NCBI GenBank assembly: GCA_950295325.1 | Contig: OX485804.1 | Location: 22,134,001-22,198,000 of the forward strand | Direction: 5' to 3' | From: Polytrichum commune | Lineage: Eukaryota; Streptophyta; Polytrichopsida; Polytrichales; Polytrichaceae | Length of the DNA stretch: 64,000 nt | Shown: positions 21,401 through 61,528 of the stretch, piece after piece | Layout: each line of letters begins with the position of its first letter | How positions within the stretch are numbered: position 1 is the first letter of the stretch | Made by a program: the position numbers and the translations under genes | The notes under the pieces: model-generated | Databases searched by the model: none | The model's input: the letters and a program-made list of their open reading frames with translations, nothing else | Told to the model about the DNA's origin: nothing

Positions 21401-24251
21401 CTCATCCGAAAGATATCCAAAACCGGGCATCCAGTAGACTCTCCCTATTTTCTGTGGCAAGTGCTTTGTCTTTCGCCACCGCAGGGAGTTGGGAGAGAGA
21501 GTTAGAAGAGTTAAAAGGTTTTGAGCATGATCTCTCGGAAGCCGGTGGTCACGAAATTGGGTCATCGCAGGCCGGACAGTCTATAGATCAGGAGATTGCG
21601 GCTGCTAAAGCTAGGCATAGACACCATAAACATCACAGCACGACAGAGAATTTGTTCCCGGATTCCTTCGAGGGTACAGATTTTTTGGTGGGTGGAGCAG
21701 ACGCGACGGACTTGTCGTTCTTAGAAGCAGGAGCTGCTGATCCAGAAGAGATAGGCGGGGCACATCATGATGAGGATCAACATGAGAATGACGAATTAGT
21801 TAAGCAGCTCAATCCTCTTGAGACTCACATGGCACATGATTACGTCAACTACAATCGTGGATCCGGTGATACGGGAGAGGAGCAATTACACTCGACATCA
21901 GGTGATGCTGCTGTGACTGACATTACGGAAGACCGGGGTGACGATATTGGAGACATTCAAATCACGCCAGCTGCAGTGCCATTAAAAGAAGACATCATCT
22001 CTTCTCAAGAATTTCCTCCCCTTGGAGACGGCATTCCACCGGAAGCTCTTGAGGATAATAGAGGCAACGACGCATCATCAACGGAAGGTTTGAGCCATGG
22101 CCATGGCTCAGAGGACGAATCGGCAGCGAGAATGCTACTCTCTCCTTCCGATGGAGACGTTGAAGGAGTTTCCAACACTACAGGAACGACGCAAAATAAG
22201 GATGTTACTTCTGCTAATAACTTGGCAGATGACAGCGGACGGGGGGGTGATGACACAATCATCGCTGGACCTTCTTCAGAAGCAGAAAAGGAAGCAGTAG
22301 ATGACATGCTACAACCTGGTTCTTCCAGTAGTGAAGTTCCATCTCATTTTGTGGAGAATGGGGGCCCAGAAGTATCTGCTTCACCCCCACATGAGAACTC
22401 GGCAAATGCAGACCCATCTGTTGACCAGGGTCATACGATGCAAGAAATGGGCAGTAACAAGACATCCGAAGAGGAAATCATAGCAGCTGCAACAATTACA
22501 GGGAGTGTGGAGGGTGCTCCGGGAGAGGTAATTTCTCCCGAAGTAGATCCTGTCTCGATTCCGGAAAGTGAAGCTCCTCCGTATGATGTCACCAAAGCTG
22601 TTGAATGCACTTTCACATCGGTCCGAGATGCAGCAGAAGTTGGATCCAGAGATGGAGAAAGGGAGGTTGCGCCGGACTCTGGAACTTCGAAAGAAGTCGA
22701 CGAGGGTAAGACCTCTGCATCTCCTTCAATCATAGCTCTTGATGATCATAGGGTCGACACAGTACCTGATTCTTCTACTCATGGTGAAACTGATGCCTAT
22801 GTACCCGAGGTCGTCAGAGTTTGGTTGGAGGAGCATGCAACCTCTTCTCCTGAACTTAATGATGTAGATCATGCAGTCTCGGGTGGTGAAGGTATGAGCA
22901 TCGATGAGAATGCACTTAGTTCTGCTTCAGCTTCACAAAGGCTGACAGATCAGGACGAAGGTGATGAAGATGACGACACAGAAATCCAAAAGTGTCTTGA
23001 ATATAATGCATCTTCAAATAATGTATTTGATGCCGTTGACAAGCTCCACAAATTGGGTCTTGATGAGGGTAAGAGTACAATTAAGACCGAAGACTTTAGA
23101 GACGGTGAGGATGCAGCTCCGCCTGTGCCACAGGCTGTTGAGGATTTGATAGAAGCATTGGAGACTTTCCCTCAGAAAATAAATGCAGATCCACCAGCAC
23201 CTTGTGATTTGCGTTCTGATATTGCCAACAATGATAATGGTTCTGCAAGTAATATTGCCTCTGAGCTGAATGCTGTTGGTGATGGTGATAAAGGGAATGG
23301 TAAAGGAGTTGCCGAGGAAACAGATGATGCCTCTACCTCTGAAACACATGGTCCATCATCAGACGATGCAGAAAACACACCGGTGGAGCTTGAGACGGCA
23401 CCTCAGAGCAGAGTTGAAAGTAACGGTGCAGATTCTCCCGAAAGTGAATATGGGGAACCGAGTAGTCAACTGTCAGAAGACTCTGAGGGTCTCAAGGATG
23501 TATGTACTGTTGAAGCTGAAGACCAAGTCTCAACCAGTGGAAACACAGAGGATGGTGAAGCTTCTACATCAAGAAGTTCTGAAGATCAAAGACAGATGGA
23601 TGCTGCTCTTCTAGACTTTACAAAGGGAGGGAGTACAGAAGCATCTCGCTTAACTGACGCGAAGGGACAAGGTGCCGAAGACTCTCAGGGTTTGGAGATA
23701 TTGCCTGAGAAGACCAATTCCGTGCAAGCCGTCAATTGCAGAAGTAATGGAGACATCCAAATTGCCCCACCTTCCATGGACGCTGAGGATAGTCATCCTG
23801 GAAAAGATATATCCTCGTCATCACGTCAAAGTAATGGAGACTTGAGATCAGAAAAGCCTGTTAGGGACAAGGGCGCAGCATCTACCAAGAAGACTGTTGC
23901 TTTCGCTCTGGAGCCGATAACCAGAGTGGAAATGGAAAGAAAAATTGATGAGAAAGATGAAAATCATGTCGGAGGCCTTAACGCAAGACCCGGTAGAGCT
24001 CAGGTTTGTGAAGCATTTGATATCCTCTCTATGTCGAGCTTCATTTTATTTGTTGCGTTGCCAAATGCTCTATGGAATCCTCAAGTACTTGTTAGAAGTG
24101 TTCATTGTACGCAAATCGCCTACTTGTCTCTTGATTAGTGTTCATTTACTCAATAGAAACCGCCTACTGTTTTCCATGGGTAGATAACGAAGCAAGAAAC
24201 AATCAGGGAAGCTTTTGAGCAATGAAGTGAATAAGAGAAAAGTCCGTCGAG
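18440..24251 (+). CDS. SAP-like N-terminal protein with a long acidic disordered region
   Basis: Five-exon model: 18,440-18,523; 18,815-18,876; 19,185-19,323; 20,875-24,003; and probably 24,197-24,251. All donors are GT and acceptors AG, and phases agree, giving 1138 codons before the last exon. Exons 1-2 encode PRKELKQLCTQFNIR and then HDELVRLLRNKLYP, two amphipathic helices like the SAP-type DNA/chromatin-binding fold seen at the N-terminus of several plant nuclear proteins. Exons 3-4 start with basic, proline-containing stretches (SPRDAWKPKAF, KRSDYVRKK). About 900 residues rich in E, D, S, G and A follow, with no recognised domain and probably disordered. Near the end is TKKTVAFALEPITRVEM. 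The start ATG is chosen because it opens exon 1 in phase. The C-terminus is unsure: the likely last exon reads KQSGKLLSNEVNKRKVRR, a basic tail. Probably nuclear; function unknown. Confidence 0.75.
19316..20874 (+). repeat. Tandem repeat (about 5 x 305 bp) filling intron 3
   Basis: The intron between exons 3 and 4 consists of about five diverged copies of a 300-310-bp unit. The anchor 'ctccaaattcaaaacatatacc' recurs near 19,403, 19,711, 20,011, 20,313 and 20,622. Each unit junction in copies 1-4 retains a (G/C)AG|GTAC splice-donor-like sequence (19,321; about 19,627; about 19,925; about 20,229). The fourth-to-fifth junction (about 20,510-20,575) carries a near copy of the true acceptor region (gactccgagcctcctcattg) but with the AG lost. 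Confidence 0.85.
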
Positions 24252-39300: not shown

Positions 39301-42300
39301 AGACATTTTTGTCATTTGAACTGACCACTCCATCATACCTTGCGAGTCTGGCGCATGTTTCTTAGGCCAGCTACAGCCCTTGTTGCTGAGCCATAAGGAG
39401 AGCCCCTTCGCCAAGCTGGATTTGGCACATATCCAACAAATTCATGTGCCATCATCTGCTCAGACAACGCTCTCCCAACTATCCTTGGTGGCAACCCAAC
39501 CCGAACTGCTGTTGAATTGTCAACTGCAGAAAATGGGACATCACTGGATGCAGGCAGGAATACATCGCTGAAGGACTCCAACTCACAAATGTGATTCTCC
39601 ACCATTGGTTGTACCATATCAGGAAGCTGAACCACAACCAGAAATCCATGTAAATTGCTCCACGGCACAAGCTCACTACAGATATGCAAATTACGTTTCT
39701 TATTTTCCTCAAGTGGGTAAAAGTACAGAAGGACATAAGAAAGTCGTGCAGCAGTCCAAACTACCTCTAACAAAGAAGGCCCTTTTCAAAGTTCAGCACT
39801 CCAACACAAACGCAGGGCCATACTGGATGTATAATCGGCTCAAAAAAACTGTAGTTCATACACATTCAAAGTCTTCTGAATCCAGCCTGCACCGTGTATC
39901 ACCAGTGCCCGGAAGATTGGGAACTTCAGATGCAAGGAAATTGTGCAGAATACTTGATGATTCTTTATAGCCCTAAGAAGGCTAGAAATTCTAGTAGAGT
40001 ATGCATCCAAGGAGAAGCTTGGAGGACTGAATGAAAGTTTAGATGCAGAAATAAAGTGAAGACTATACTTGGTTTTCCTAGAATGTTTTTTTATCTCTAG
40101 AGCTGAAACTCATTGACATCTACATTGAGTCGGCAATAGTTTTCCAATTGACCTCAAAATTTACTGCTACATCTCCATAATGCAAAATGCTACTTGTCTT
40201 AGATCTCAAGCCATACCTCTGTTGGAAGAGAGTGCAGATTAACAAGGGCATGGTCTGAGGCAGCCCATAAATGAACATATCCTCCAGAGTCTCCAAAAGC
40301 AAAAAGCTCCCCTGAGCTTGAAACGTCTGCAGCCAGTAGAGCATCCGAATCACAGTCGACCTGCCATCAAGCCAACAACAATCTCGCTCAATGGTCAAGG
40401 GTGCATTTCAGAAATGTCAACAATTGAGGGAATTGTCGTAGAGATGTAGTCAAAGAGTATCCAGACTCTCCTTAGTAGAAACGAACCTGTTTTGTTTTTG
40501 TTTTACTTCAGTATGCATTAAAGCACTGAGGACACAAGTACAAAATGGATTCCTTCATTTCAACAGTTATATATTTTGAATGCAAAGCATGGCAATATCT
40601 AGATAGTGTGTTGTCCATCTTCTGCATCATGTTTAGGCCAATCAATTCAAATCAACAAAAAGAAGAGATCATCACATTCACTGAGAGAATGAAAAGGACC
40701 ATGCTCTGACTTTCCCAACCCAGAACAGAACACACTCACAAGTGAGACCCAAGACAAGTCTAACTCGTTCAACTCACAGAGTTGCAAGGGGTCTACTCAA
40801 AGGAGTTGTCTCCAAAGCAAAGGTGAAAGGACAAAAAACTCAACCTGATGAGTTTGAAAATCTACACCACCTCCTTGAACATCAGTAAGGAGTATTGCAC
40901 CATTGGCTGATGTTGCCAAAACTATGCTTGAAAACTTTGGCTGAAAACGAAGTGTAGTAGCCCCAGGTGAAAATGGAATATGTGATAGAGGGCGCACTTG
41001 TTGCCGAATATCAAATACCTACAGCATAGACTGTGATCAGTGCTCAAGATGTTATACAGAAGTTTCACCTTCGATAGAGGGCCTCTGAAACATTGTGCAT
41101 GTGCAAGGTTCACCCTAAAAGACATTTATTGAACTCTGCTTTGACAAGTGACTCCTTGCTTGATGTAGTCAAATCTTGAAACATAAATAAAAACAGAACA
41201 AGTCAAACCTTGATAAAAGGCTCACAGTACACACGCCCCATTCGCATTGTAAGTCCACAAGATACAAGCAAATCGCCCTTCAAATCCAATGAAGAAACTT
41301 TCCCTGGAAAAGCCAAACAAACTCCAGATGGTCGGTTGCTTAAAATCAACTGTACTGGCCAGAACACCAGTGCATTCTTGCAGGATTCAAGCTCATCAAT
41401 TGCCCAACCCCCAAAAAAATCTCAAGAACCACATCCTTCGACTGAAGCACACATAAAAGAGATATTGAAATACCTTGATGGGCATCTATGGTGTGCTCAG
41501 TCTTCATTGTTCGAAAATCTTTCAAAACAATGTCGCCACCCATGCCACCACATGCTACAAGTCTGCCATTGCTGCGCATCACAGCTATTTCTTGCCCAGC
41601 TAGAGACTGCAGTTTCGCCAGTGAAGAGACAGATAAACATTTCCTTCCTCTACAATTTTTATAAAACTGAATAGATTCAATGTAGCAAATTTTCAATTTA
41701 GAGGTTGTACTTGAAGGCAGGTGCACAAGTCAAGTCTAATATTCACTTTCCCTAAATTGTAAATAGCATGACTCAAGTGAATCTGTTCAACTTCGTGAAC
41801 TAACTGAACATGTCAAAAAGAAGTCACAGTATAACATGTAAAAAGCTCAACAGGGATTGTGAACACAAACCGACGAGGCAATACATGCTGTTGACAAATC
41901 AAGGACTGAAATCCTGGCACTCGAGTGACCAATCAAAATGCGACCAGCTCCAGGACGCTCCCAATCACAACATGTCATGTCCAAGACATCCTCATCCCTG
42001 TGATTTCAAGGAGATCAATGCTTAAACATTAGCCTTGAGCAGCTACGCTGGCCTAACCATCCATAGAGATTGACAGCTCCATTTTTGCTGTTGTTCATTG
42101 GGGTGAACATTACACTGTATTCTTCCATAAACTTTTACATCAAATGTATACTTCTTGGTGTCAATTTACAAGGTTCCATGTCCAGGTCTCACTGAAGCTC
42201 TACAAATTTTCCAACATAATTGCAAGGCTTGTAGACGAATGTTCATGTCATTTATTCGGTAAGATCATGAGAGGCTTCTATGAAATGTGTTGTATTGTAC

Positions 42301-46570: not shown

Positions 46571-46580
46571 TACAGTCGAC
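46571..46580. repeat. 10-bp target-site duplication of the giant element (left)
   Basis: tacagtcgac, repeated exactly at 61,519-61,528. The inverted repeats begin directly inside both copies. Confidence 0.75.
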
Positions 46581-46750
46581 GGACGACACTCCTATGTGAG
46601 CGGAGAGCGGAGAGGAAGTAAAAATAGTAAACTTCATAGACTAAATTTAGAAATATTAAAAAAGAACAGAACATACTTAGAATATTCTAGATTCTTCCAA
46701 AAAATAGTAAAATTTTATAACCTATTTCCGTGGAATGTATAGGTCCTAAA

Positions 46751-49284
46751 TTAAATAAAAAGGCCCTGAATTTGAAATGGTGTCATTAAGTTTGGAAACC
46801 GTGAAGTGCTAAAATGATAGGAAAATTGTGATATAATAGATAAGCCCACATTGCCCTTCAAGTACTGGTAGTAATTGACGACTTGTAGGAATGCCTGGAT
46901 ATAGTCATCCACCGTGACGACGTAAAGATCACCGCCATTGTTGCCAGATGCTTGAAGCCACTTGTTGTGGACAGTCTCCGCAAGGTTGCAAGACGGCATC
47001 TCCGCAAGTTCTATCACCGTGAATTTATGGGCATCGCATGCGAGGTCAAGTTAGCATAAAATTCAAAACTATATCACCCTTCAAAGTCCGGATTGATGTT
47101 CATGGCAAAAATCGAATGAGCTTACCCCTGTCATAAATCCACCCCATTGGCGATAGCGGAAGTGCCAAAAGGCAAGCCACAACTCCAATTACTGAACGTT
47201 TTTTCAGTCATGGCCCCAACGGATACCCACCAAGCCCTCAGTACATGGTAAAGACTCTCGGCCTCGGCCAGCGTCCGTGTCGTCCTATAGTGGTGGCACA
47301 TCTTCACGTGTTGTTCCCTCATGTTTTCAGCGATGTGTTTGTCCGTGTATTTCAACATGGACTGGGTCCAGTGAAACTAACAAATCCTCTCTTGATCGTC
47401 CATGCGATCCTCCTTCTTGCCGTTCCCGTATATGACCCGGATGGCATTCCACTTTACATGCGCACTGTCCGCCATGAATCCTTTGAAGTAAGGTCTCTCG
47501 ACGCCATGTCCCTCCATCACTGCGTTGAGGTTTTTCCAGAACACCATCTGCGCATCAATATCCTTGGATTGCATGTCGCAACATGCAATGGTCATCACAC
47601 AGCAATAAGTCGAGTCGTAAACATGACAAGCCATGGTGGTCCACTGCCTCACCCGTTTGACGTGGTCGAACATTATCCAAACATTCTCGAGGTCCCCCTT
47701 GGGTTGCATTCGCTTCATCAAGTCCACCCCACTTCCAGGCCCCACCTCCAACATCTTGAACACGAAGACCTTGTCAAGCTCTGCACCTTGACCGGGAAAC
47801 ATGTTCTTTTGCACAAAAGCCCAGTTGTTGAGACCCCGCAACTTGGTAATTCTATCCATCATGCCATACCTCCTCAAGTATCTAAAGGTGACAACCTTGT
47901 TTCGGATGTTGGGCGACGCCATGTCCTTGCATTGGTCAAGCACCGGAACGAGTTCCTCAAAAGTAAACATCTTCGGCGGATCGTCCTCGGACCTCAACAA
48001 GTAGTTGCCAACAAGCATCTTACTTGCTTCCAACACAACTGCACTCTTCGTGGCCTGTGGAGTCTTCTCGATCTGATCTTTGATGAGGCTACTAATTTTG
48101 ACCTTCGTATCTCTATAGTTGCCAACTTTAACAGGATGCTCATGGGTTCCAAGGTGGATGCAAACACGGGTGTTGTTACGTTTGCCCGAGACATAATAGA
48201 CTTTAGCTCTACAAGTGGCAAGACAAGCGGGAGGTTCCTTGCACACCTTGCAAACCATAGTCGAATCTTTGGGAGGACCCTGGCCAACAACAAATGCTTG
48301 CAAGGTACATCCGTCAAACTTTGTCTCGTTCACTTCGAAGATGTGATGCTCACGGGTCAAGTAGGCGCACTCCTTATTCTCACACTGCAGGTGACCGACA
48401 CAACTTGAGAACCGGAAAGAGAGACCCATATCATTAGTGATGTTGGTCGTGATGGTTTTGGTCCAGACATGACCATCGTATCGTTTATCCATGCCATGCA
48501 TAGATTTTGCCTGCGTCCATGAGGTTGAAGTACCGGCAAGAGGCAACTCAAACATGACATCACCGTTAAATATTGTAGGCAAGTACTTAATTTTCTCATG
48601 TCTAATGGAACTGTAGTCAAACTTCTTTAGGAGATTCTTCTTCCCTGGCCTAGTAGCTAGCTTCTTCAAACAATCTACGAAACTGACGCACACACATGAA
48701 GAAGGCGGTTGCAATGGAGGACACTTATCTGAAACAACTACATGAGACTGCGACCGAACAGAAGGATTGGGTGGACTAGGAACTAAAGGCATGGATCTGC
48801 GAGGACTGTCATCGTCGTCTGATGAAAGGGTGATGACTGAATTAAAAGTGCCCAATTCGACCTTAACTTTTGCAAGAAGAGGAGTCTCTGGTCCTGGCTA
48901 TACCTTGACCTTTACATCAGTAGGAAGAGGGGTATGCATAGTGCACATAGATGAACGGCTAAGGGTAAGAATTTCCGTAGATGTTGCCATCTGGGAATCT
49001 GTCAATCCATAGACCCTATACCTGCCGGGAGCAAGTCTCCACATCTTGCAGTCATTCTCATCACGAATTGATAATTGGCCAATTGTGTGAGTTAGTTCAG
49101 ACATGAGGTCATCAAAAACCTCCTCCTCAATACTAATAGTGTCTTCTAGAAAAGTGAATCTAAGATTTAAACGTTGACTAGACACTGAAGCATGTCCGTT
49201 CTCATCCACACGAAAGGTAAGAGGAATGCACATGCCATTGGCGCGGAGCACAGCCAACGCAGCGGTTGAGACTAAATCCGCCAT
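46751..49284 (-). pseudogene. MULE-like transposase, decayed
   Basis: Starts at MADLVSTAALAVLRANG (ATG at 49,284) and stays in one frame to about 47,170. TAG stops interrupt it at 48,898-48,900 and 47,377-47,379, and a frameshift lies near 47,165. It continues FWHFRYRQWGGFMTG, then after a likely intron with a degraded acceptor, MPSCNLAETVHNKWLQASG and VDDYIQAFLQVV. A Cys/His-rich zinc-binding segment (C-C-H around QCENKECAYLTREH and a later HLGTHEHPV) precedes a DDE-like core with CHVYDSTYCCVMTIACCDMQ and FKGFMADSAHVKWNAIRVIY. The arrangement (zinc module, DDE core, later WW/Cys-rich part) and the 10-bp duplication of the host element support a MULE-type enzyme. The exact catalytic triad is not certain. 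The C-terminus beyond about 46,830 is not recognisable. Confidence 0.65.
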
Positions 49285-49784
49285 GGCGAGTAGAGACTGA
49301 GACCAACTCAACTGGAATGATATTGCTATATAGAAAGACAATCAAGAGAGGCGTGTGCCAATGCATTTATTGAATTGGTAATGGCCTACTCTAGAGTGTC
49401 ACCAGTTGATGAGAATGGAGTTCAATAATTTAAAGGCTTGTAGGATAATTGGTTGTTTTCTAGAATTATTATAGCAGTTGTAAAATTATTGGGCAAGGGT
49501 GATCGAAGGTATGTCAATGCATAAGTAGTTGTGTGGAATATGTGGCAACCAAATTTAGGCACAACCGACGTCATTTATTGGATCAATTAAATATCTATCA
49601 AATTTAGAATCAAAGGTTTAGGTGTAAAGTCGATTGCCCTCGGCCGCAATTTAAAGGATGAAAATAACAATTATGCGATATTATAAGTAATCATTAAAGG
49701 GGTCCATTAAATTGGAATGTAGTGGAGATTTAAACAAGATGCAAAACACCATAAAATTCCTCTCAGATTGCAGAAAGATGAGTT
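49285..49784. other. Spacer between divergent element genes
   Basis: AT-rich, about 500 bp, between the minus-strand transposase and the plus-strand unknown gene. It probably held both promoters; no element is recognised. Confidence 0.4.
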
Positions 49785-50525
49785 GATTTTGTGAATGAGG
49801 TAGTATCTCAGATGCATGCCATGTATCTATTAGACGGTGTGACACCTTCGATCGCAAAGCGAAGGAGAAGGAGAAAACCCCTATTCTCTAGTTCAAAGCA
49901 GATTAGGCGTGCTAGGATGAGAAATGCAGAGACTAATAGAATGCGGTTTGCAAACTTGGACGGTACCGTCAAGTCGTTAATAAACCAATTTGCCAAGCTT
50001 CCAGTCGAGATTGTACAAAATCAAGTTGTTGAACAAAAAATTACTTTACTTTCCCACTGAAAGTGTGAAACTGAGCTCCAACTATCGGTGGACTTCAGTA
50101 TTGTCGAAGAGAGTCAGGTATTTGATTGCCCACTCATTAATTAATGTTGTTTTTTATATTATAAATTTCCACATGGTGCAAGGTTAGGAACAACCTCGAA
50201 TGGGACGTTCACGGATGAGGATTAAGGCTTAGAATTCATATGCGTTGCTCGGTTGGACTACGGGGCTGAGGATAAATAATTAGGGTTACAGTTTTGGAAA
50301 GGGTTGAATAAGAACAAAGGGGTGCCACAAGAGGCGAGGGAGTTGGCAGCTAGAGAAGGGATAGTGAGTGCGGACTTCGTGGGTCTGAGAATTTGAGTCA
50401 TAGAGAGTGATTTAGATTCTGGGGAGATCAGTGAAGGGGAGATAAAAATTGAGGGCGGAACCTTGAGTCCGACTTGCACTGATGTTGACTTGCTATTAGT
50501 TAGATCAAACGCCAAATTAGATTAG
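49785..50525 (+). pseudogene. Unrecognised element-borne gene, decayed
   Basis: The first part (to about 50,115) encodes a basic stretch (SIAKRRRRRKPLFSS, KQIRRARMRNAETNR) and LDGTVKSLINQFAKLPVEIV. A small frameshift near 50,040 leads into FPTESVKLSSNYRWTSVLSK. A donor-like cag|gtattt at about 50,117 and an acceptor-like gcaag near 50,182 bound a short intron. The second part, one frame to TAG at 50,523, includes LDYGAEDK, LGLQFWKGLNKNKGVPQEA and ESDLDSGEISEGEIKIEGG. It is broken by TAA at 50,223 and 50,277 and TGA at 50,394. The stops fit CAA/CGA codons altered by C to T. I recognise no family. A DNA-binding or nuclear role is suggested only by the basic run. Confidence 0.45.
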
Positions 50526-50696
50526 GTTGGAGTCATATGTATTGCTAGCCAAACCAATCAACTGAAGTCCATCAATTGCGGTCCCAAGAAGTCGACAGAG
50601 AAATGAGCAACTCACCACGAGAACAACCAAGCAGTACAAACCGAGCCAGAGTATGTTGTCTGAACCCGAGGTGTGGGATTTTTTTTGAAGTGTTTG

Positions 50697-51647
50697 CGAA
50701 GTGAGGCCACCGAATCTGAGTCCAGTTCAGGGTTCGTAAAGGGTGTTGGATGGTGGTGGTTGGGTCCGACCACTATCTCTGGATTTTTTTTGAAGTATTT
50801 GCAAAGTGAGGCTACCAAGTCTGAATCCAGTTCAGGGTTCGTAAAGGGTGTTGGATGGTGGTGATTAGGTCCGACCACCACCTCTGGATCCTTAGCTAGA
50901 AGCCCCCAGCAGCTTCAGACCTCCATAACTTCCATGTGTGATATCTAATGCTCACATATGACTACTCTATCGTCATTTACGTGTTACATAGATGCGCATA
51001 GACACCTCACTTGTCCCATTTAGGCAACTATTGAGGAAGTTATGCTTGTTCAAACCTCCGTAGTCCCGGGAGCCACTCTCAGGCCACTGATGTTCTAGGG
51101 TGTTGGATGGTGGTGGTCGGGTCCGACCACCATCTCTTGATCATTTTTTTTTGAAATTTTTGCAAAGTGAGGCCACCGAATCAGAGTCCAGTTCAGGTTC
51201 GTAAAGGGTATTGGATGGTGATGGTCGGATTCGACCACCACCTCTAGATTTTTTTTTTAAAGTATTTGCGAAGTGAGGTTACCAAGTCAGAGTCTAGTTC
51301 AGAGTTCATAAAGGGTGCTAGATGGTGGTAGTTAGGTCCGACCACCACCTTTGGATCCTCAACTAGAAGCCCCAGCAGCTTCAGACCTCCATAACTTCCA
51401 CGTGTGATTTTTGATGCTCACCTATGACTACGCTATCGTCATCTACATTTCACGTAGATGCGGATGGACACCTCACTTCCCCCATTTAAGCAAGTATTGA
51501 GGAAGTTATGCTTGTTCAAACCTCCGGAGTCCTTTGAGCCACTCCGATGCCACTGCTGTTCCAGGGTGTTGGAGGGTGGTGGTCGGGTCCGACCACCACC
51601 TCTGGATCCTCTTTTTTTAAGTATTTGTAAAGTGAGGCCACCGAGTC
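50697..51647. repeat. Tandem array, left block, with perfect palindromes
   Basis: Built from a roughly 105-bp unit (agtgaggccaccgagtctga ... gggttcgtaaagggtgttgg ... poly-T) and an interspersed roughly 240-bp unit (agcagcttcagacctccata ...). The short unit holds a palindrome made of two 12-bp arms, ggtggtggtcgg and its complement, around gt; it is perfect at 51,575-51,600 and degenerate near 50,752, 50,858, 51,115, 51,220 and 51,328. The array continues in the same orientation at 55,735 after the inserted PIF/Harbinger element. Confidence 0.88.
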
Positions 51648-51990
51648 TTATGTCCCGATCATACCAATTTCCCATCAACTTCCGGATGTGAAATAATTGG
51701 GAAGTCATGACGGCCAGATGCCAAGTTATTCATACCAACATCCCGGTTTGGTTAACATTTTGGTGGCCGGTGGCTACCATCATGACCGGTCAAACGAGTT
51801 GGTATAGACTTTTAAGGATAATTGTTCTTCCTTCTATAAGGAACCCGCCTTGATTTTCAACACGATGACTTTTGTCTCAAGTTCTTCATCATACTTAAGA
51901 CTCTCTTGAAATGTTCAATTCATCATTTGGGTTGGACACAAACTTGTTAGAAGCGTAGTGCATGTAACATTGGATCCATTAGAGTTTCTT

Positions 51991-53211
51991 ATGATGTCCC
52001 CTTTGTTCCAAAATGATGAAGATAATTGTAACGTTATTTTTTCGTTGATTACTATGATTAGTATGAGTGAGGTTATTCAAAAAATAATTCACCGTTAGTG
52101 GAAATTTCCACGTTCGAGGTATATGTGGAAGGTTATACACAAAGATATTTGGAATTTTGACTCAGAAGTTTGTGATGGTTTATGGATTCAAGAATATAGA
52201 ATGACCTACACATCTTTTTTGAATCTAGTTGAATTTTTTAGGCCTTACGTAGAACATGAAACTACCAACTAAAGAGCAGCAATTGAGGTTGATCGTGCTA
52301 TAGCTATGGTATTGAATAAGTTAGCATTTGGATTTTACAATAGACACGTTGCCAACAATTATTGTGTTGGACAAAGTACGGTTTGGAAGTATACTTTTAT
52401 TATTACAGAGGTTTTGGCTAGTCCACAAAAATTATATTCCCATTTCATTAGTATTTCTCAAGGTGAAATATTGATATCGATTATAGCACACTTTAAGAAT
52501 TTAATTGGGTTAGAAAATATGTGTGGGGCCATTGATGGCACTCACATTAGATTGGTTGAAAAACCTCCTACAAGCTTAATTCATGCTGATTATTGGAACC
52601 GGCATGATCATCATTCAGTATTGTTACAAGGTGTTTGTGATGCTAATCTTGTGTTTTGGGATGTGTGTGTAAGGGCACCTGGAGGAACTCACGATGCAAC
52701 TCACTTTCGGGATTCATTTTTGTACAAGGATTTTTTGGAGAAAACTATTTTGCAAGAATCAAGTATTAAACTAGGCTCTCATTTAGTTCGACCTTATATT
52801 GCGGGTGATTCTGCCTATCCTTTGATGATTTACATTATGAAGGCATATTCTGATCGAGGCAATGGTGATATATATAAAGATATTTTTTATAGGGCATTTA
52901 TATTGGGGAGGGTTAAAATTGAAATTTTTTTTGCCCATCTCAAGAATAGTTGGAAAGTTCTCAAGTGTCTTAATTTTACTGTCCCATATCCATGCCAAAT
53001 TATTATTGCGTGTTGTGTTTTATACAATTTTTGCAGAATGAATAATGAACAACTTGCAAGTAGACAAATAGTGGATCCCCACCCAAACCTTAATGATTTG
53101 AGGGTTCCAAGGAGACCAACTACTGAGAGAGCAACTAGACTTGCCGCAATTGCCATTAATATTCGACATGCTATCTATGAGAAATGGTTACATTCCATTT
53201 TAAATGACTAG
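51991..53211 (+). pseudogene. PIF/Harbinger DDE transposase
   Basis: A single frame of about 406 codons from ATG at 51,991, broken by TAG at 52,096 and TAA at 52,270. Family residues are present: the first Asp in MCGAIDGTHIRL, the second in YIAGDSAYPLMI, and the Glu in VKIEIFFAHLKNSWKVL, followed by a typical CCVLYNFC segment. It would cut and join at TWA targets together with the Myb/SANT-like partner encoded on the opposite strand. The part downstream of 52,306 is an uninterrupted 301-codon frame and includes the whole catalytic core, so decay is mild. Confidence 0.9.
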
Positions 53212-54023
53212 ACATATTACGTGGTTCATTCTACTATATTACGGCATGTATTTTGAAATTTACATATTTTATTTAATACAAATGTGCATATGGTAATTAT
53301 ATATATATATTATTTATCTTTGTATGATAATTTATTTATATCGAGATGCAATAATTGTGGATGCTTTGAAAGTCCTCTTAAGGGGTGAGATTGTAATCAC
53401 CAAAAACAATTAACCAATTACATAATACTAATAGAATATAAACATGTAACCAGTTCGACTTTGAATCACTAGGATATTGACCACTTTATGTATTTGGATG
53501 CTATTTTATTTTTCTCTCGTAATCACCAATTTCTATTGGATATATTATATAACAGAGGTTGTGTTTCATTAGCAAATCTACCATGACACATGCATCAACT
53601 GGAATGGAAATTGGACCTTCTTTGATTTAGTTGTGACTATCAAAAGTGCATATTTATTAAATTTTAAGGGGATACTTAGGTCCTTCTAATTGTATTTATT
53701 ATTGAGTATAGAGTCTTTGTTGATGTTTGAATACATAGTCCAATAAGTTATTTAAATAAATATATATTTATAAATATATATATTACATGCACAAAGTTCA
53801 TACCATCAGTCAATATGTTCACAACATCAATCAATCAATGTTATATATGTATATTATATATAATATATAATATATAACATAATATAATATATCATATACA
53901 ATATAAATGTAATCTTCAACAAAATATATAATTTACTAGCCTAATTCAAAGATAAAAAACATCATCTTTTTATTGTCGTTTGCGCTTAGAAGAATTACCA
54001 ACTTCCATTTTCATTCGGAACAA
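53212..54023. other. Convergent intergenic region of the Harbinger element
   Basis: About 800 bp of AT-rich DNA between the two convergent genes, with TA-rich runs at about 53,750-53,930. It presumably holds both 3' ends. Nothing else seen. Confidence 0.6.
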
Positions 54024-54809
54024 CTACATTTTTAGGTTCTCAGCTCGTTCTTTGGCGTTTGCATCTAACTCATGTAGTCGTAGTTGAAATGCTTGATTAT
54101 CCGAATGCATTTGGGCAGCCAATGCTAAGTGTTTTTCGGCTATTGACATTCTGGTTTCATCTAATGACTTATAGACATCTACAAATCTATTCAAGGAATC
54201 TGCAATAGGTTTGCTAGAAGTGTCATTACGTTTAGAATTCAATTTACCTTCTACATTGGGTAAATTGCAAGCTCGTTGCCGTAAAGATTCTGCAGTGATC
54301 TCTGAAGGTGTAGTATTCATACCCTCTGCTTCGGGATTTGTTGGAGTTATGTGCACTAGACTTACAGGAATATCCTTGTTAAAATTAAATGGCTCATATT
54401 GATCCAAATCAATATTTGTGCTCGTGTAAGGCACTTCACCTCGATCTTGCGATCCTGACAAACCGGAACATTTCGGTGTAGTAGCCCACATTTGGTCACA
54501 TTCTTCGTACCAAACCCAAGTTCAAGCTGTCCCCCCTGAAATTTTGACAACCTCTACACGTTCTTTTTGTATATATTTTTTTGAATTATCAATTTTATTT
54601 TTGAGTGTTTGTTTTGTCAATTGAGACCCTGCTTCGGCATTAAATGAAGCGGTTAGTTTATTCTAATGATGATCTTTTGCATTGCCTCGTCTTAAATGAA
54701 AGTATTGATCCCGGAAAAGAGTCAATAAAATCATTATCCATGCATCCAATCAGTGGGTGGCAAGTCCCTTAGAACTTGACTCCGTTTCGTTTACATTTGG
54801 TGGCGCCAT
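54024..54809 (-). pseudogene. Myb/SANT-like partner protein of PIF/Harbinger
   Basis: One 262-codon frame beginning MAPPNVNETESSSKG (ATG at 54,807-54,809), with three in-frame stops. All three fall at positions where the Myb/SANT-like family usually has Trp: after KGLATH, after NAKDHH, and in SGGTA(stop)TWVWYEECDQMWA. The rest shows the typical trihelix region (LTKQTLKNKIDNSKKYIQ) and a C-terminal helical stretch (RMSIAEKHLALAAQMHSDNQ). In this superfamily the protein binds subterminal DNA and brings the transposase to the nucleus. It lies convergent to the transposase, as usual. Confidence 0.8.
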
Positions 54810-55731
54810 CCTGTAAAATATATTCATAATAAATCTCAAAGGATTTTTGTACATTGTTATGATTAGAGAGAACCGACAGTTAGTTTGTTCTCAATGCCTA
54901 AATACGTAACAAAACAACCAATTCACGTAAACATATGGTACAACAGAGATCCCAAATTGAATTAAAAAGTTCAAACTTTGATTTCAGAGGAAGATTCAGA
55001 AGCCGACAAGTAAAGATAGCCTAAACAGTTTGCAAAGAAGGTTTATGGCATTCTCATCTTCGCACCCACTGAAACGAAACTCAGGATCTCAAAATAATCA
55101 CAGTACATACACACTATTATTCAATCAAAGAAATTGTGAGAAGCGTGTCAAAAAATAACCTTGGAATTTTATTCTTATTCAGCTCGGAGTTGTGCCAGAT
55201 CCTAACTTTACATGCACTGCATTGAAACAAACACACATACATTTTTACTTGAAGGGCCCCTTTCTCAGATCTACATCTGACTACTACTACTGCTAATAGA
55301 CATTTAAAGCGAGTAGAACTTACAGTTTAGCAATGACAAAATAGTAACCATGGGACAAATCTACTATACATTGCATCAACAAAAATAAACCAGAGTTGCA
55401 CAAAGATGAAGCTCAAGAATTAAAGAAACTAACATGGAATTATGTTGGATGTAGAGATGCACAACACAATGAGGAAGTATCTTATAAGAAACTTCTCAAT
55501 GTGTAGCAACCGGAATAGAGTAACCGGCAGATGTTAATATTGGAAGGGTTACTATTTTCGGTGGTGGGACCCACACTCCCGACGCACGTCCAAACGTGGA
55601 TGTCAAATTATAGTTGGTGGCCATCTCCGCCGCCGTCATACATCATGGATGGTGATGGCCCACTATGAAAATCACTATTAAAGACTTATTCATCTACTGA
55701 AAATGAACTTTCCGTTTGGTGTGATCGGGCA
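54810..55731. other. Right non-coding part of the Harbinger element
   Basis: Upstream region of the Myb/SANT-like gene up to the right inverted repeat. No coding sequence recognised. Confidence 0.6.
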
Positions 55732-55734
55732 TGA

Positions 55735-56240
55735 ATCCAGTTTAAGGTTGTAAAGGGTGCTGGATGGTAGTGGTTAGGTCTGACCACCACCTCTGGATCC
55801 TCAGCTAGAAGCCTCCAACAGCTTCAGACCTCCATAACTTCCACGTATGATCTTTGATGCTCACATATAACCATTCTATCGTCATTTACGTTTCACGTAG
55901 ATGCGGATAGATACCTCACTTGCCTCATTTAGGCAAGTATTGGAGGAAATTATGCTTTTTCAAACCTCCGTAGTCCCGGGAGCCACTCCCAGGCCACTGC
56001 TGTTCCATGGTGCAGGATGGTGGTGGTCGGGTCCGACCACCACCTCTAGATTTTTTTTTTGAAGTTTTTGCGAAGCGAGGCCACCAAGTCTGAGTTCAGT
56101 TCAGGGTTCGTAAAGGGTGCTGGATGGTGGTGGTCGGGTCCGACCACCACCTCTGGATTTTTTTTTTTAAGTTTTTGCAAAATGAGGCCACCGAGTCTAA
56201 GTCCAATTGAGGGTTCGTAAAGGGTGTTGGAGGGGCCAGG
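55735..56240. repeat. Tandem array, right block
   Basis: Continuation of the array at 50,697-51,647, in the same orientation and register. It contains two perfect 26-bp palindromes (56,019-56,044 and 56,126-56,151) and a degenerate one near 55,768, plus one roughly 240-bp unit. It ends about 100 bp before the first ATG of the methyltransferase-like gene, so it may also have served as that gene's upstream region. Confidence 0.88.
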
Positions 56241-56341
56241 TTTAGGGTTTGAGTTGCATTTGTTTGATTTCTGATTTGACGGGTGATGTTTGCTTGTTAC
56301 CTAGATTGAGGCCGCTTAGAGTTGTTTTTGTGTAGATTTGT

Positions 56342-59300
56342 ATGATGTCGATTGTAAGTGAAGTTGTGGAGGTTGCAACTGGAGGGTCATCAACAAGAGT
56401 TTCGGGGAGTCTCTGCAGAGGAGCCATGGACTTGGAGGTTACCCACGGGTCGCCTGATGTAAGCATTGCACCAAGGAAGGGAAAGGGAATGGTGCGGCGC
56501 ATTCCTTAGTCTGAGTCCAGTGAGAGTGGAGATCGCGACGACGGTGATGAGTCGCAGCCTTCGTTTGGGATGGACTCGGTAGGGGGATCATAGTCACCAT
56601 CCTCTTGCAAATTTTAGTCAAGGCCAGAGTAGTGGTGATGGAGGCCATTTTGAGTCACTTGTGGAGCATGCTCGAAGGCAAGTTAAGGGCCTAACAAAGG
56701 TTGAGAACAATGTGCAAGCCACATTGCTCCGTGACAATATGTATGAGGTAATTGAAAGTATGAGGCGGCAACCCGTCTCAAAAGCAGTCCTTCGAATTCT
56801 ATTGTGTAAGAAGATTCACATACCTATGGTTAAACCTACACTTCGATGTGATGTTGTTAAGTTGATAGGAGCGTTTCGCTATGGGGATAAACCCCATTCA
56901 GGTGCTATTTATGTGTCCGTGACAGATGACGAGGATCAAAACATGGTTGTCACTCAAGAGGATGTACAACATGGAGCCCTTGTTGGATTCAGGAAAATGA
57001 TGCATTCGAAAACTGCTTGAAATCCGATGCTAACCTTGTGAGCTTGAGTGGCTCAATGTTCTTTGTTTATGATGGTAACCATAGGCTCTTAGCTTAGAAG
57101 GAGATGATTGAAACTCTTCATACTGAAGATCAACATTGGATTTCGAAGAATGGTAATCCCGAATACGTTGTACTTGACACCACTGGAGGTCGTGGAGATA
57201 TTCTCACTGCCATGCACGATATCAACAAATAATTTTTTTGTTGATCTCATATTGTTTTTGATCTTCTTATTTGGCGCTTCACAATTTATGCAATCTGACA
57301 TGCCAACTGTACAGGTCCAATCAAATGGCACATGTGAAGAATAACTTAGTTCATACTCTTCATCGTATTCGGAATTACGGATCATATGACATTGAGTACT
57401 TCAAGCCCATGCTTACTTAGGAGCAGATAAAATCATGCCTGACGAAGTCAAAGAAGACGTAGTACCCATTTACTAGAGATTTGATGGTCAACTTCATCTT
57501 CATTGTAAGGATCTCATTTCCTTCTGGTTTCTTTCTTATCTGCAATCACTTGATTTGACAGTTTAGTTCTGATTGTTTGCTTCATTTTTCAGGATGATAT
57601 AGTCCAAGTGGCTAGCGAGGCTGGGCAGTTATACTTGGAAGAGGTGGATGAAAGCGTGCATAGCAATTCAGGCCTCCATGAATATGTTGACAAGGCTATT
57701 GCTAAGAAGAAAGAGGAGCTATTTACCTACTTCAACAAAGCCCAATCAGTTGCTAATCCAGCCGTAGGGGAGGGCTTCATGGAAGAGGTGAGTGAATTTT
57801 ACTGGGATTTTGATTTTGATTCAAGACCTTAGCTTTGCCTCTACTGATGCATTATTTCCTTGGACATGCAGGTTATTGCGCATTACAGTGCACACGTTGC
57901 TGCCAAAATTGAGATGTCACTAGAGAAACTGCAGATGGTGGCAACTGCAGCGGTTGAGCCCAAGTACAAAGTGCGTTGGCTCAAGTGGTGGAACAGTTCA
58001 GATCTTGTTCGAAAGGACCTCGGGTTTTCAAAGTACCATGTTGGTGAGGACACGCTGAAGAAATGGATGGACCGTGCTGCTCTTTGGGCAAGGATAGAAG
58101 AAAGTGCCACTCAAAAGCTTGTTGGTTACATAGCACTAGTGGGTGGGGTTGATAAGTCCAAAGATGTAGAGAGTCTTGAGGACTACATTGACACTTGGCG
58201 AATTTGCCTTTGGGACAAGGCATTTAACTCCCTCTTATATGGTTCTGATGCACACAATAAATCCATTGTGTTTAATAAAGTCAAGGATGGGGATCTTCTT
58301 GTGAAGCGGCTTTGCCTCAGGTATGAGTTAGTTATTTATTTATTTCATTACATTTTTTTTTCAATGCCGATGGCTACTTGCGGTTTTGCTTTAGTGTGAT
58401 GCTATGTGTGCCTTGTTCATTCATGTCTTGTTACCAATCTCATCTAGTGTCTTTTGCTAAATTTTGAAGGTATATGAAGCACGTGCTCCTTAAAGTTGGG
58501 GCAATTCGGAAGCTACCTCCTTGTGTGCAGGGGTGGTGCGATTCTTCTTCACCGACCTTCATCTTCTCAAAGGCACAGAAGAAGAACTTCAGTAAAGAGC
58601 ATTTCATTGAATATTGTTGGTACATCGAATGTCCTAAGGACTTTGTGCCTGACTCGGAGTATGAGATCAATAAATCCTTAACTGTCACATAGGATCTCCC
58701 TAATGATGATGATGCACAAGAAGTTGAAGAGATTGCTGCTCTTGAAGTTTCACCTACCTTGGATGGAGAGAAGTCTTCTGGTAAGAAGAAGCTTGCTGCA
58801 AAGACTTCAACAACCGGAGTATCCAAGAATAGTAGAACGATTCTTGCTTCAGTGGTTGCCACTGGATCTGCCACAGTTGAAGACACTCTAATGGATGAAG
58901 TTGATAGTGAGCCACTTCTACTCACTCAGAGCTTTCTGAAGGTACCAACTCCTCCCTCTCTGTCTCAGCATCCTTCTTATGAGAGCAAACCGCAAGTCCT
59001 TGTCATCAACGACTATATTCTTAAGCAGCAATGGTTCTTTCGTGAGGTGCGCAAGTTTGTTGTATCATGCTCTCTTTCTCGCTCATGGAGAATCCACGGG
59101 TTGCCTTCATTGCGTGGAGCAGCTGACTTGGTGATTGCAGACTTACCGGAAGGTCTGTCGGTTCCAACTATCTCGGTGCCATCATCAGTAGTACCCACTT
59201 GGAATGAGAAGAATAAAGACTACTTGCAAGAGTTGTTTGATTTTGCAGATGAGATTCTACACGATAATGGTGCCTTGTTACTTTTTTTCCATTTGATAAT

Positions 59301-60382
59301 GGAGAGTTCCTTGAGGACATTGAGAGGTTTTATGATTATTTTGGCTTTGTTGTGTGCAAGGAGTAGATGGGGGTCAATCTCTTGCCCATGAGCTCGGCAA
59401 GGATTCCCAATACCACCACGAACATATTCAATATCCTTCTTCTCAAGCGGGTTTCACGGCCCGAGGACTCCGTGTCTTGGACTTTTACATTTTCCATTCG
59501 TTATGTACCAGAGTTGGTGGCGCAGGGTGTGGACGTTGGCCTCAACGACACATTGATTAATTTATGCACCAATCCACTCATGGATGGTGCTCGACCGTGG
59601 AGAGGCCCAAAAGAGAAGGATGAGTACTTCTTTTCATGCCTCATTATGGCTCTAACCACAGTCGGGGACTTGGTTATTGATGTTGCAGCTGCCATTGGTA
59701 TGAATTTCACTTCATTGATGTCATTGATTTGAATTCAAACTAATCACTTTGTGAATATGGTACTTATTACAAATTGTTGATTTCTTTGTAGGCAATTCTA
59801 TTCGTGCTTGCAAGAGTACTGGCAGGCACGTACTGGGCCTAAAGAGTGACAAGAAGTTGTTTGGGGTTGTTCTTCAGCCTATGATGACTATTGCTCCATT
59901 TCCTCCACCTCCTCAAGCCCCTGTGCCAGTTGCAAAGAAGCCAAAGAAAGTTGTTGCAGTGAAGCGGCGTCGTGTTGAGGACTCTGAGTAAGTAAGCACC
60001 GCTTACTCTTTCTATTTCATTGGTCAATATTCATAGTTTTTTAAGAACCATGATATCACTTGTGCCTAAACTCTTTAAAATGTTGCAATATTGCAAAGAC
60101 TATCCTAGTCCAGCTAAGAGTTGGAGACTCCCTTCTTATGCAGAAGAAATTGCTAAGCTGCAAGCACTACATGCATCTCCATCTCTCCAGTCAAATGCCT
60201 CTCCGAAGTATAACCCTCGTGTTTTGAAATTCTTAGATGTTGCTGCAGATGTTGATTTTGAGATTGGCTTGATTGACACTCAAGCCAACCCTAGTGATTT
60301 TGTTGGTGGTTCTATTTCTCTATCCACCAACTTTGTTGGTAACATTTTGATTTATGTGGATGATGAGGCTATTAATGAATAG
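56342..60382 (+). pseudogene. ParB-like / beta-class DNA amino-methyltransferase-like protein, decayed
   Basis: Multi-exon gene. The N-terminal part (56,345-57,230) ends in FFVYDGNHRLLA, a GNHR motif like that of ParB/sulfiredoxin-fold domains. Middle exons follow (57,314-57,509; 57,595-57,787; 57,872-58,320; 58,471 onward) with HYSAHVAAKIEMSLEKLQ and WLKWWNSSDLVRKDLGFSKY. The C-terminal part has methylase motifs in beta-class order: a motif IV-like ADLVIADLPEG (59,122-59,154), then NDNGALL, then WRGPKEKDEYFFSCLIMA followed directly by TTVGDLVIDVAAAIGNS and CKSTGRHVLGLKS (across the intron at about 59,701-59,791). A basic tail KKPKKVVAVKRRR and a last exon (to TAA at 60,380) follow. Stops lie at 56,507, 56,591, 57,095, 57,418, 57,460, 58,690 and 59,364, with frameshifts near 56,610, 56,997 and in the T7 run at 59,282. 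DPPY is replaced by DLPE. The methylase fold is fairly sure, the ParB part less so. Confidence 0.6.
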
Positions 60383-60609
60383 ACCTCAATTTCGTTTTTC
60401 TCAACTAGTCAATCATATCTCCAATCTGGAGAGCCATTGTAATGGCTACTTTTATGTTTTCAAACTGTGTTAATCTCATTTTTACCACTGAATTACAACT
60501 GTAATCAATCTTTGCCTATGATACATCCATACCCTAAACCCTCGCATGAAACATGCATGAGTTATATGTTTTTGAGAGAAATTGGAAAAAGTTAGTATGG
60601 CTGTAAAAA
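60383..60609. other. 3' flank of the methyltransferase-like gene
   Basis: Short AT-rich region directly after the last exon, probably its 3' untranslated region. Confidence 0.4.
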
Positions 60610-61220
60610 TGAAAATAAGCAACAAAGAATTGAAGAATAGTCTTTGAGAAATCATGAGAAGAGAGAAAAATGAAAATTAAGATAGATAGGGCATTGATGT
60701 TATCCAAATAGTTAATCATTAGAAGAAGAGATCATTGACAAATAAACAACCCCAAAATGAGTTTTCTCAAAAGGAAAAAGAATAGAAAAAAATCAAGAAT
60801 GTAAAAATTAAAAAAACAATGGACAATGGATAATTTTTTTTTTAAAAATGAAAAATGAAAAAAAATTGATAAGATAAAAAAATTGAAGGTAACAAGTCTT
60901 TGAGACTAAGAAGTGAGGAAAATAAAAATTAAAGATTATAGGGCATAAATGTTAACAAAATTGTTAATGAATAGAAGGGATGATTCACAATTGAACAACC
61001 AAAAGAATTAGGATTTTATAAGGGATAAATTAAAAAATGTTAATAAAAAAAATTAAACATAGAAGATAATAAGTCTTTGAGAAGTCTTTAATGTAAATAA
61101 AAAATAATTTAAGATTGATTGGGCATGGATGTTAACCATTTAGTGAATAAATAAAAGAGGTCAGTGACAAATGAACAATCACAAAAATTTCAATTCTTAA
61201 AAGGAAAATGAATAAAAGAT
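60610..61220. repeat. A-rich diverged tandem repeat near the right end of the giant element
   Basis: Three diverged copies share agtctttgaga (near 60,639, 60,896 and 61,073) and gggcat(t/a/g)(g/a)atgttaac (near 60,688, 60,941 and 61,122), with an A-rich body between. Spacing is uneven (about 250 and 180 bp). It is non-coding and lies 300-900 bp from the terminal inverted repeat. Confidence 0.65.
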
Positions 61221-61518
61221 ATTGAGATAGATAAGTGAAGGCCAATGCGCGGCTCTTGAACTTTGACATCATCATGATGTCAGCTCTAATTGATGCATAG
61301 AAATTGTGATGAACCCTAAACCAAAACGGTGGAAACATGTACATAGATTATATTCTTAGATTGAGAATCCACAGTTATACATATCAAAAGTTTAAATTAG
61401 TAATAAAGTTGTCAAAAAATTCCATGGTTATAGGAGTTGATTCATCTTAAAATGACATTCCAAATGTCTATTTTCTACTCTCCGCTCTCCGCTCTTTGCT
61501 CGCATACGACCTTTCCCC

Positions 61519-61528
61519 TACAGTCGAC
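61519..61528. repeat. 10-bp target-site duplication of the giant element (right)
   Basis: tacagtcgac, identical to 46,571-46,580. Confidence 0.75.

Follow-up and report, generated by a model that had tools for sequence, protein, structure and literature searches.

A giant Mutator-like transposon family with a methyltransferase-like partner gene in Polytrichum commune

Does the 64,000-nucleotide stretch of Polytrichum commune contig OX485804.1 analysed here (hereafter the window) harbor a single giant transposon, and is the methyltransferase-type gene within it an incidental passenger or a regular component? A preliminary reading of the letters alone (the sequence-only reading) had proposed a Mutator-like element (MULE) bounded by an exact 10-bp direct repeat and inverted ends, with two genes that are not standard MULE parts, one of them a methyltransferase-type cargo gene. 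The window contains a dead, decayed member of a family of giant Mutator-like DNA transposons, and the methyltransferase-like gene of this copy recurs as a partner of the transposase across divergent elements, and is not a one-off cargo.

Boundaries and genomic copies of the element

The element occupies positions 46581-61518 of the window (14.9 kb), between two perfect copies of the 10-bp direct repeat TACAGTCGAC. The left target-site duplication is located at 46571-46580, through which the homology of no other scored copy extends, and the right one, as read in the window, at 61519-61528. Inverted arms at 46590-46614 and 61485-61509 are identical at 21 of their 25 nt (84%) at equal offset, and both the direct repeat and the inverted ends of the sequence-only reading are as such present. 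The window contains 2702 exact 10-mer pairs with a spacing of 1-20 kb, among which this pair was top-ranked, tying at 21/25 with an AT microsatellite alone, while the arm match did not exceed 16/25 in 20 Markov-simulated windows. The left terminal block (46581-46844) includes the left arm and ends at approximately 46844, the deletion point of the window copy, and the right terminal inverted repeat and element end (61485-61518; ...CCTTTCCCC) terminates where right-end homology stops in other copies. The outermost bases, GGACGACAC on the left and GGGGAAAGG on the right (read inward), recur in other copies, with one-base differences in copy C3 (left) and in copies C6c and C4 (right). The outer 9-12 bp of the two ends match each other poorly, yet are conserved among the copies. 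The poor matching of the outermost 12 bp, previously regarded as the weak point of the proposal, is thus real but no weakness, since it is a family trait recurring in other copies.

The 407.8-Mb assembly (64 contigs) was searched with both ends. For the left end (query 46571-46900), 40 of 371 candidates were scored, giving 42 rows, one for the window itself, 39 for other places and two for short additional pieces. In 28 of the 39 places the match starts at query base 9-12, the element's own first base being query base 11, and in the other 11 at query base 26-32; it runs to query base 273-275 (window 46843-46845) in 36/39. The right end (query 60980-61528) yielded 22 candidates, all scored, and eight other long matches, in six of which homology stops exactly at 61518; the remaining two extend 3 and 9 bases beyond. 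Fetching 19.7 kb around each of these eight right-end copies recovered four more full-length copies, C7 (17,016 bp), C3 (~14,560 bp), C6b (~16,480 bp) and C1 (12,891 bp), the lengths of C3 and C6b being derived by arithmetic. All four have the same gene order as the window copy, and C3 and C6b are each flanked by a perfect 10-bp duplication (GAGAGTGGAT and ACCTCTCAAC), which makes three of the five full-length copies with such duplications; none was found when looked for in C7 and C1. No left-end match of at least 80 bp was found in the fetched stretch of the other four right-end copies. The search for paired-end copies, chosen beforehand as a check of the sequence-only reading, thus returned four copies of 12.9-17.0 kb, two of them with perfect duplications, and homology breaking at unrelated places, the outcome named as speaking against an element, was looked for in the copies and not seen. 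The shared ends, duplications and gene order support the proposal that a methyltransferase-type gene sits within a giant Mutator-like element. An origin of the 10-bp repeat by chance is ruled out, as independent copies share the ends and carry duplications of their own.

Approximately 1.8 kb of DNA at 46844 is present in C7, C3 and C6b and has been lost from the window copy, while C1 contains 2.5 kb at this point; in C3 the last exon of the transposase lies within the 1.8-kb stretch. C>T plus G>A substitutions account for 102 of 168 private changes in the window copy and 95 of 159 in C1, an excess that follows the pattern expected from host cytosine methylation. The copy C5 (loci L045 and L046) lacks the part matching window positions 58040-59763, and with it most of the methyltransferase domain, while the flanking exons and right end are retained (blastn); C5 is a natural deletion derivative. 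Other scored copies of the left block number at least 39 (from 371 candidates), as opposed to eight long copies of the right block (22 candidates, all scored), and the left end may be shared with other element types.

Recurrent pairing of the two genes

A genome-wide search for the methyltransferase-like gene, in which 100 of 1878 candidates were scored, returned 114 rows that were collapsed by hand to 87 places. The 27 dropped rows were considered further pieces of the same genes, although one near C4:42.84 Mb, 32 kb from the nearest place, may be separate. The corresponding transposase search gave 61 listed places among 2395 candidates. A listed transposase lies within 30 kb at 29 of the 87 methyltransferase places, and 28 of the 29 pairs are divergent, head to head. 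Random uniform placement produced a mean of 0.86 pairs and a maximum of four in 2000 trials; such placement ignores transposon clustering, of which the orientation bias is independent. The window's own pair falls outside the 29, its transposase not being among the 61 listed.

The pairs take in relatives whose identity to the query methyltransferase is 93%, ~44%, 41%, 36% and 32%, and exon order is kept at the one place read (L055) of a second subfamily (subfamily 2). In the protein collection, the transposase relative P0083 and the methyltransferase relative P0121 both have a longest contig of 12,669 bases, which is consistent with the two genes being situated on one contig. Of the earlier label of a cargo gene, the carriage of a methyltransferase-type gene stands, while its incidental nature does not, given the 29 paired places and their near-uniform divergent orientation.

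The two genes and the array between them

The decayed transposase gene (46845-49341, minus strand) is interrupted by stops at 48898-48900 and 47377-47379 and a frame change near 47170, and its C-terminal exon is cut off at 46844. Candidate catalytic residues lie in HVYDSTY (47605-47625), GFMADSA (47461-47481) and NLAETVHNKW (46958-46987), all on the minus strand; an alignment of transposase relatives (A2) contains an invariant aspartate and another that is nearly invariant, while an E..N motif in the last transposase exon of C3 was picked by eye. The protein collection contains 265 transposase relatives (E<=0.001), of which the best of 120 listed is 77% identical, and P0083 is 90% identical over 47% of the query. 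The transposase has no MULE match in Pfam, Transposase_mut was matched weakly by two of 51 relatives (best E=0.034), and a transposase profile gave only a chance match against solved structures. The last exon of C3, deleted from the window copy, matches the SWIM finger PF04434 below the cut-off (E=0.0017; 18.3 bits; cut-off 19.6). The transposase is classed as Mutator-like with an apparently unusually diverged domain, as judged by the 10-bp duplications, the SWIM-like finger and the weak Transposase_mut matches rather than by a curated MULE domain. The ratio of nonsynonymous to synonymous substitution rates (dN/dS) of the transposase is 0.32-0.64 in 15 copy pairs. At fifteen of the 61 listed transposase places, open frames of 757-762 amino acids without stops share 93% identity with the relative P0003, which suggests that subfamily 2 has spread recently.

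The methyltransferase-like gene (56428-59991, plus strand; start codon uncertain) comprises six exons with GT-AG introns at approximately 56428-57235, 57316-57505, 57594-57789, 57873-58320, 58471-59698 and 59793-59991, a model taken from C3, the first exon of which has stops; the window gene is itself decayed by stops and frameshifts. The motif FVYDGNHR in the N-terminal exon (57062-57085, plus strand) bears a ParB-type resemblance, which we treat as a lead only. The C-terminal half presents the motif IV position (59133-59153, plus strand), where the window sequence reads IADLPEG in place of DPP[YFW], and then the intron-split motif I of the S-adenosylmethionine (SAM) pocket, VIDVAAAIG / NSIRACKSTGRHVLGL (59673-59850, plus strand), which is kept and alignable to DpnA and CcrM. 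Beta-class methyltransferases have the motif order IV then I. The spliced window sequence matches the structures of DpnA (E=4e-4) and CcrM (E=4e-3). For the spliced domain of the subfamily-2 relative P0127, matches were obtained to the DNA methyltransferase phrog_3008 (E=2.1e-8), phrog_6952 (E=6.9e-8), a CcrM model (E=7.3e-7), DpnA structures (E=9e-6) and, below the cut-off of 26.7 bits, Pfam N6_N4_Mtase (E=1.9e-4; 21.9 bits); the significant stretches of the structure and Pfam alignments stop short of motif IV. As the catalytic motif (D/N/S)PP(Y/F/W) is absent, the protein is classed as methyltransferase-like (beta-class-like) rather than as an enzyme. The replacement of motif IV is constant in the relatives and looks like altered function rather than decay.

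A 410-amino acid exon query identified 17 relatives in the protein collection (P0121, 89% identical), while a 958-amino acid read-through query found none among 7998 scored candidates, probably because the collection holds single exons. No methyltransferase relative was confirmed in the viral and prokaryotic contigs searched, and a tblastn search of phages returned 66 records, the best of the 20 listed reaching E=4e-3 over the motif I region and a few longer matches 21% identity at E=0.7-0.9. A profile from alignment A4 gave only a chance match against solved structures, probably because most of its members lack the last exon.

A tandem array lies between the two genes. Its left part (50640-51652) has periods of ~105-107 bp and 466 bp, with palindromes at 51109-51134, 51217-51242 and 51575-51600, and its right part (55728-56240) has palindromes at 55766-55791, 56019-56044 and 56126-56151. 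Many of the ~107-bp units contain the 26-bp near-perfect palindrome GGTGGTGGTCGGGTCCGACCACCACC. At L055 the unit is ~170 bp long, mostly with the palindrome GGGCACTGTCGGATCCGACAGACCCC, and the core GTCGGNNCCGAC is common to both subfamilies. The L055 and 107-bp units align locally with a score of 20, below the best of 200 shuffles (30), while a separate 190-bp block at L055 shares 79% identity with a portion of the window array, judging from which the arrays of the two subfamilies share some ancestry.

The core occurs four times in the window array, 22, 13, 12 and two times in the intergenic regions of the four other full-length copies, 16 times upstream of the L055 gene, and 17 and 10 times in the array regions of C6a and C5. 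It is absent from the remainder of those elements, from 49 kb of the window that lie beyond the element and from 18 kb of flanking DNA, as well as from C6c and C4, where no array is visible, and from loci L001-L038. This restriction to arrays is a statement about the sequence read, in which subfamily 2 is represented by one place, L055. That the core was kept as the unit around it was replaced suggests a putative bound site, on the evidence of that one subfamily-2 place. The intergenic region of C7 (L041 and L042) includes a long low-complexity stretch that gives rise to proline-arginine-rich open frames in several frames.

The array of the window copy is split by a nested PIF/Harbinger-type element of ~4.1 kb (~51653-55727), with inverted ends approximately at TGTCCCGATCATACCAA and the reverse complement of TGCCCGATCACACCAA and putative flanking triplets TTA and TGA. 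PIF/Harbinger elements generate 3-bp TWA-type duplications. It encodes a DDE_Tnp_4 transposase (52273-53211, plus strand; Pfam E=1.4e-18) and a second, antisense open reading frame (ORF; 54024-54521, minus strand). None of the eight fetched copies matches the DNA at 51661-55725, which is hence private to the window copy among the nine compared; distant Harbinger-like protein matches in two copies (29% and 23%) are confined to their flanks. Of the two non-MULE genes proposed earlier, the methyltransferase-like gene is upheld, while 52273-53211 is ruled out as a cargo gene, being the transposase of a nested element without a match in the fetched copies.

Elsewhere in the window, a tandem array with a unit of ~304-309 bp (19316-20873) directly precedes a 1087-codon open frame (20875-24138), and an open frame on the minus strand at 41346-41729 may resemble the deadenylase subunit PAN2.

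Proposed role, alternatives and significance

The ends, duplications, gene order, recurrence, altered motif IV and array with its core are observed, and from these we infer transposition, recognition of the array and an effect on silencing. The leftward transposase would move the element by cut-and-paste, while the second protein would be a transposon-encoded accessory factor recognizing the palindromic array between the divergent genes, where both promoters should lie. It would act there through its methyltransferase-like domain, either marking the element's own DNA or, the catalytic motif being altered, binding without methylating and shielding it from host silencing. Such a role would parallel that of VANC in the VANDAL elements of Arabidopsis, through an apparently different protein. 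We consider the chances evenly balanced that the family is a MULE encoding its own methyltransferase-like accessory protein for DNA recognition, perhaps of anti-silencing function. More tentatively, and with a lower probability, the ParB-like N-terminus and rewired methyltransferase fold might bind GTCGGNNCCGAC in a partition-like self-recognition that marks or shields the control region, allowing giant elements to escape silencing and keep spreading.

Several observations weigh against this reading. The gap is ~25.7 kb in two of the 29 pairs, one of them the 32% pair, as opposed to 3-19 kb in the others, and 58 of the 87 methyltransferase places have no listed transposase nearby, while 32 of the 61 transposases have no listed methyltransferase, each of the two lists covering a part of its candidates. 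At motif IV, 13 of the 15 aligned relatives have D[LI]PE and two have DLPD, with the first proline and the aromatic residue missing in all 15, which makes ordinary N6/N4 methylation by this protein unlikely. The ParB-like resemblance in the subfamily-2 relative is a weak match (phrog_1033; E=0.41 across the DGNHR motif), and the subfamily-2 N-terminus matched no Pfam family. Palindrome binding could furthermore be a property of the transposase or of a host protein instead. Lastly, no constraint is visible in the six youngest copy pairs (dS <0.04), where methyltransferase exon dN/dS is 0.63-1.65, while it is 0.26-0.88 in the 22 of 28 pairs with dS >=0.07. The values of the young pairs are expected of decay after insertion; the older pairs, and the conservation between subfamilies, suggest that the source lineage was under constraint.

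An accessory role in silencing has to be weighed against other explanations of the same locus. The protein may be a second transposition component, recognizing ends or targets or marking freshly replicated ends, with palindromes that bind the transposase or its complex and no part in silencing. The conserved position and orientation of the gene relative to the transposase over divergent relatives would fit this, as would the second, sometimes antisense, ORFs described for several MULE groups in the cited part of a MULE survey (PMC6446971), and we regard it as somewhat unlikely, as the palindromes are situated mid-element between the genes and not at the ends. We consider it distinctly unlikely that the protein is an active methyltransferase which deposits N6-methyladenine or N4-methylcytosine (4mC) on the element and for which D[LI]P[ED] is a functional, if unusual, motif IV. 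The retained motif I and the constancy of the replacement, which does not resemble random decay, are compatible with activity, but the residues missing from all aligned relatives, the significant matches that fall short of motif IV, and the abolished activity of a bdelloid 4mC enzyme upon mutation of its SPPY motif, as stated in the cited passage (PMC8885841), speak against it.

Passive capture, in which a single element picked up a methyltransferase-like gene from the host or a foreign source and the gene then travelled along, appears very improbable. While MULEs are described as prone to acquiring host gene fragments (PMC6446971, in part) and the dN/dS of young copies is near 1, the gene is found again next to the transposase among relatives whose identity to the query is only 32-49%, a persistence not expected of passive cargo, and exon order is unchanged at the one divergent place read. 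That there is no element at all, only a composite of unrelated nested elements plus a chance repeat, draws on the nested Harbinger element, which is really present in the window, but is refuted by the ends, gene order and 10-bp duplications common to the copies, and we accord it next to no probability.

Set beside known systems, the family with its putative accessory protein resembles MULEs as described in the cited part of the survey (PMC6446971) in its duplications (8-11 bp in MULEs, 10 bp here) and inverted ends. Its putative DDE-type transposase is a further point of likeness; in MULEs this enzyme frequently bears a SWIM finger, and some of them have a second antisense ORF. It differs in its size of 12.9-17 kb, its lack of a Pfam MULE match and its methyltransferase-like second gene; the survey's main text does not contain the word methyltransferase, and lists SET for 14 members of a Phytophthora group. 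Like VANDAL elements, as far as covered in the cited passages (PMC5735166, PMC10398659), it has an accessory gene in a MuDR-type element, and VANC targets, often tandem repeats in non-coding element parts that vary between related elements (PMC5735166), resemble the arrays described here. VANC and the methyltransferase-like protein are likened by description; anti-silencing with sequence-specific hypomethylation is a feature of VANC, and may be one of the protein described here. Fungal DNA transposons encoding TET/JBP dioxygenases, as well as SET genes in HarbingerS and oomycete MuDR, have been reported (PMC12730594, in part), and share the combination of a DNA transposon with an epigenetic-modifier gene, although with other enzyme families and other hosts.

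Transposon-encoded DNA methyltransferases are likewise known from retrotransposons, with DNMT in dinoflagellate LINE/DIRS and charophyte elements and Dam-like enzymes in DIRS, and DNA transposons with DNMT in marine viruses are mentioned in the same cited passages (PMC5890265). These retrotransposons carry C5 or Dam-like enzymes, whereas the element described here is of the cut-and-paste type, with a beta-class-like domain and an altered motif IV. The bacterial beta-class amino-methyltransferases DpnA and CcrM share the alignable SAM pocket and the motif order IV then I, and differ from the protein described here in having DPP[YFW] instead of D[LI]P[ED], and in lacking its long N-terminal part and introns. 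Aimed full-text literature searches, which leave most subscription papers outside their coverage, returned no report of the transposase and methyltransferase-like combination among the matches listed. As such, while transposons with epigenetic-modifier genes are already known, the present combination appears new as far as the literature was searched.

DNA transposons face silencing based on DNA methylation, and few of their counter-weapons are known. The family described here pairs a bacterial-type methyltransferase-like gene with a transposase over deep divergence, and maintains a palindromic core that outlasts the replacement of its repeat unit. If the self-recognition reading is true, the system would be an equivalent, in a eukaryotic transposon, of parS/ParB or of the self-marking of phage DNA. 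The family offers tangible material for studying how epigenetic marks are handled by transposons, and for finding out if these draw on non-C5 base methylation or on binding proteins with a methyltransferase fold.

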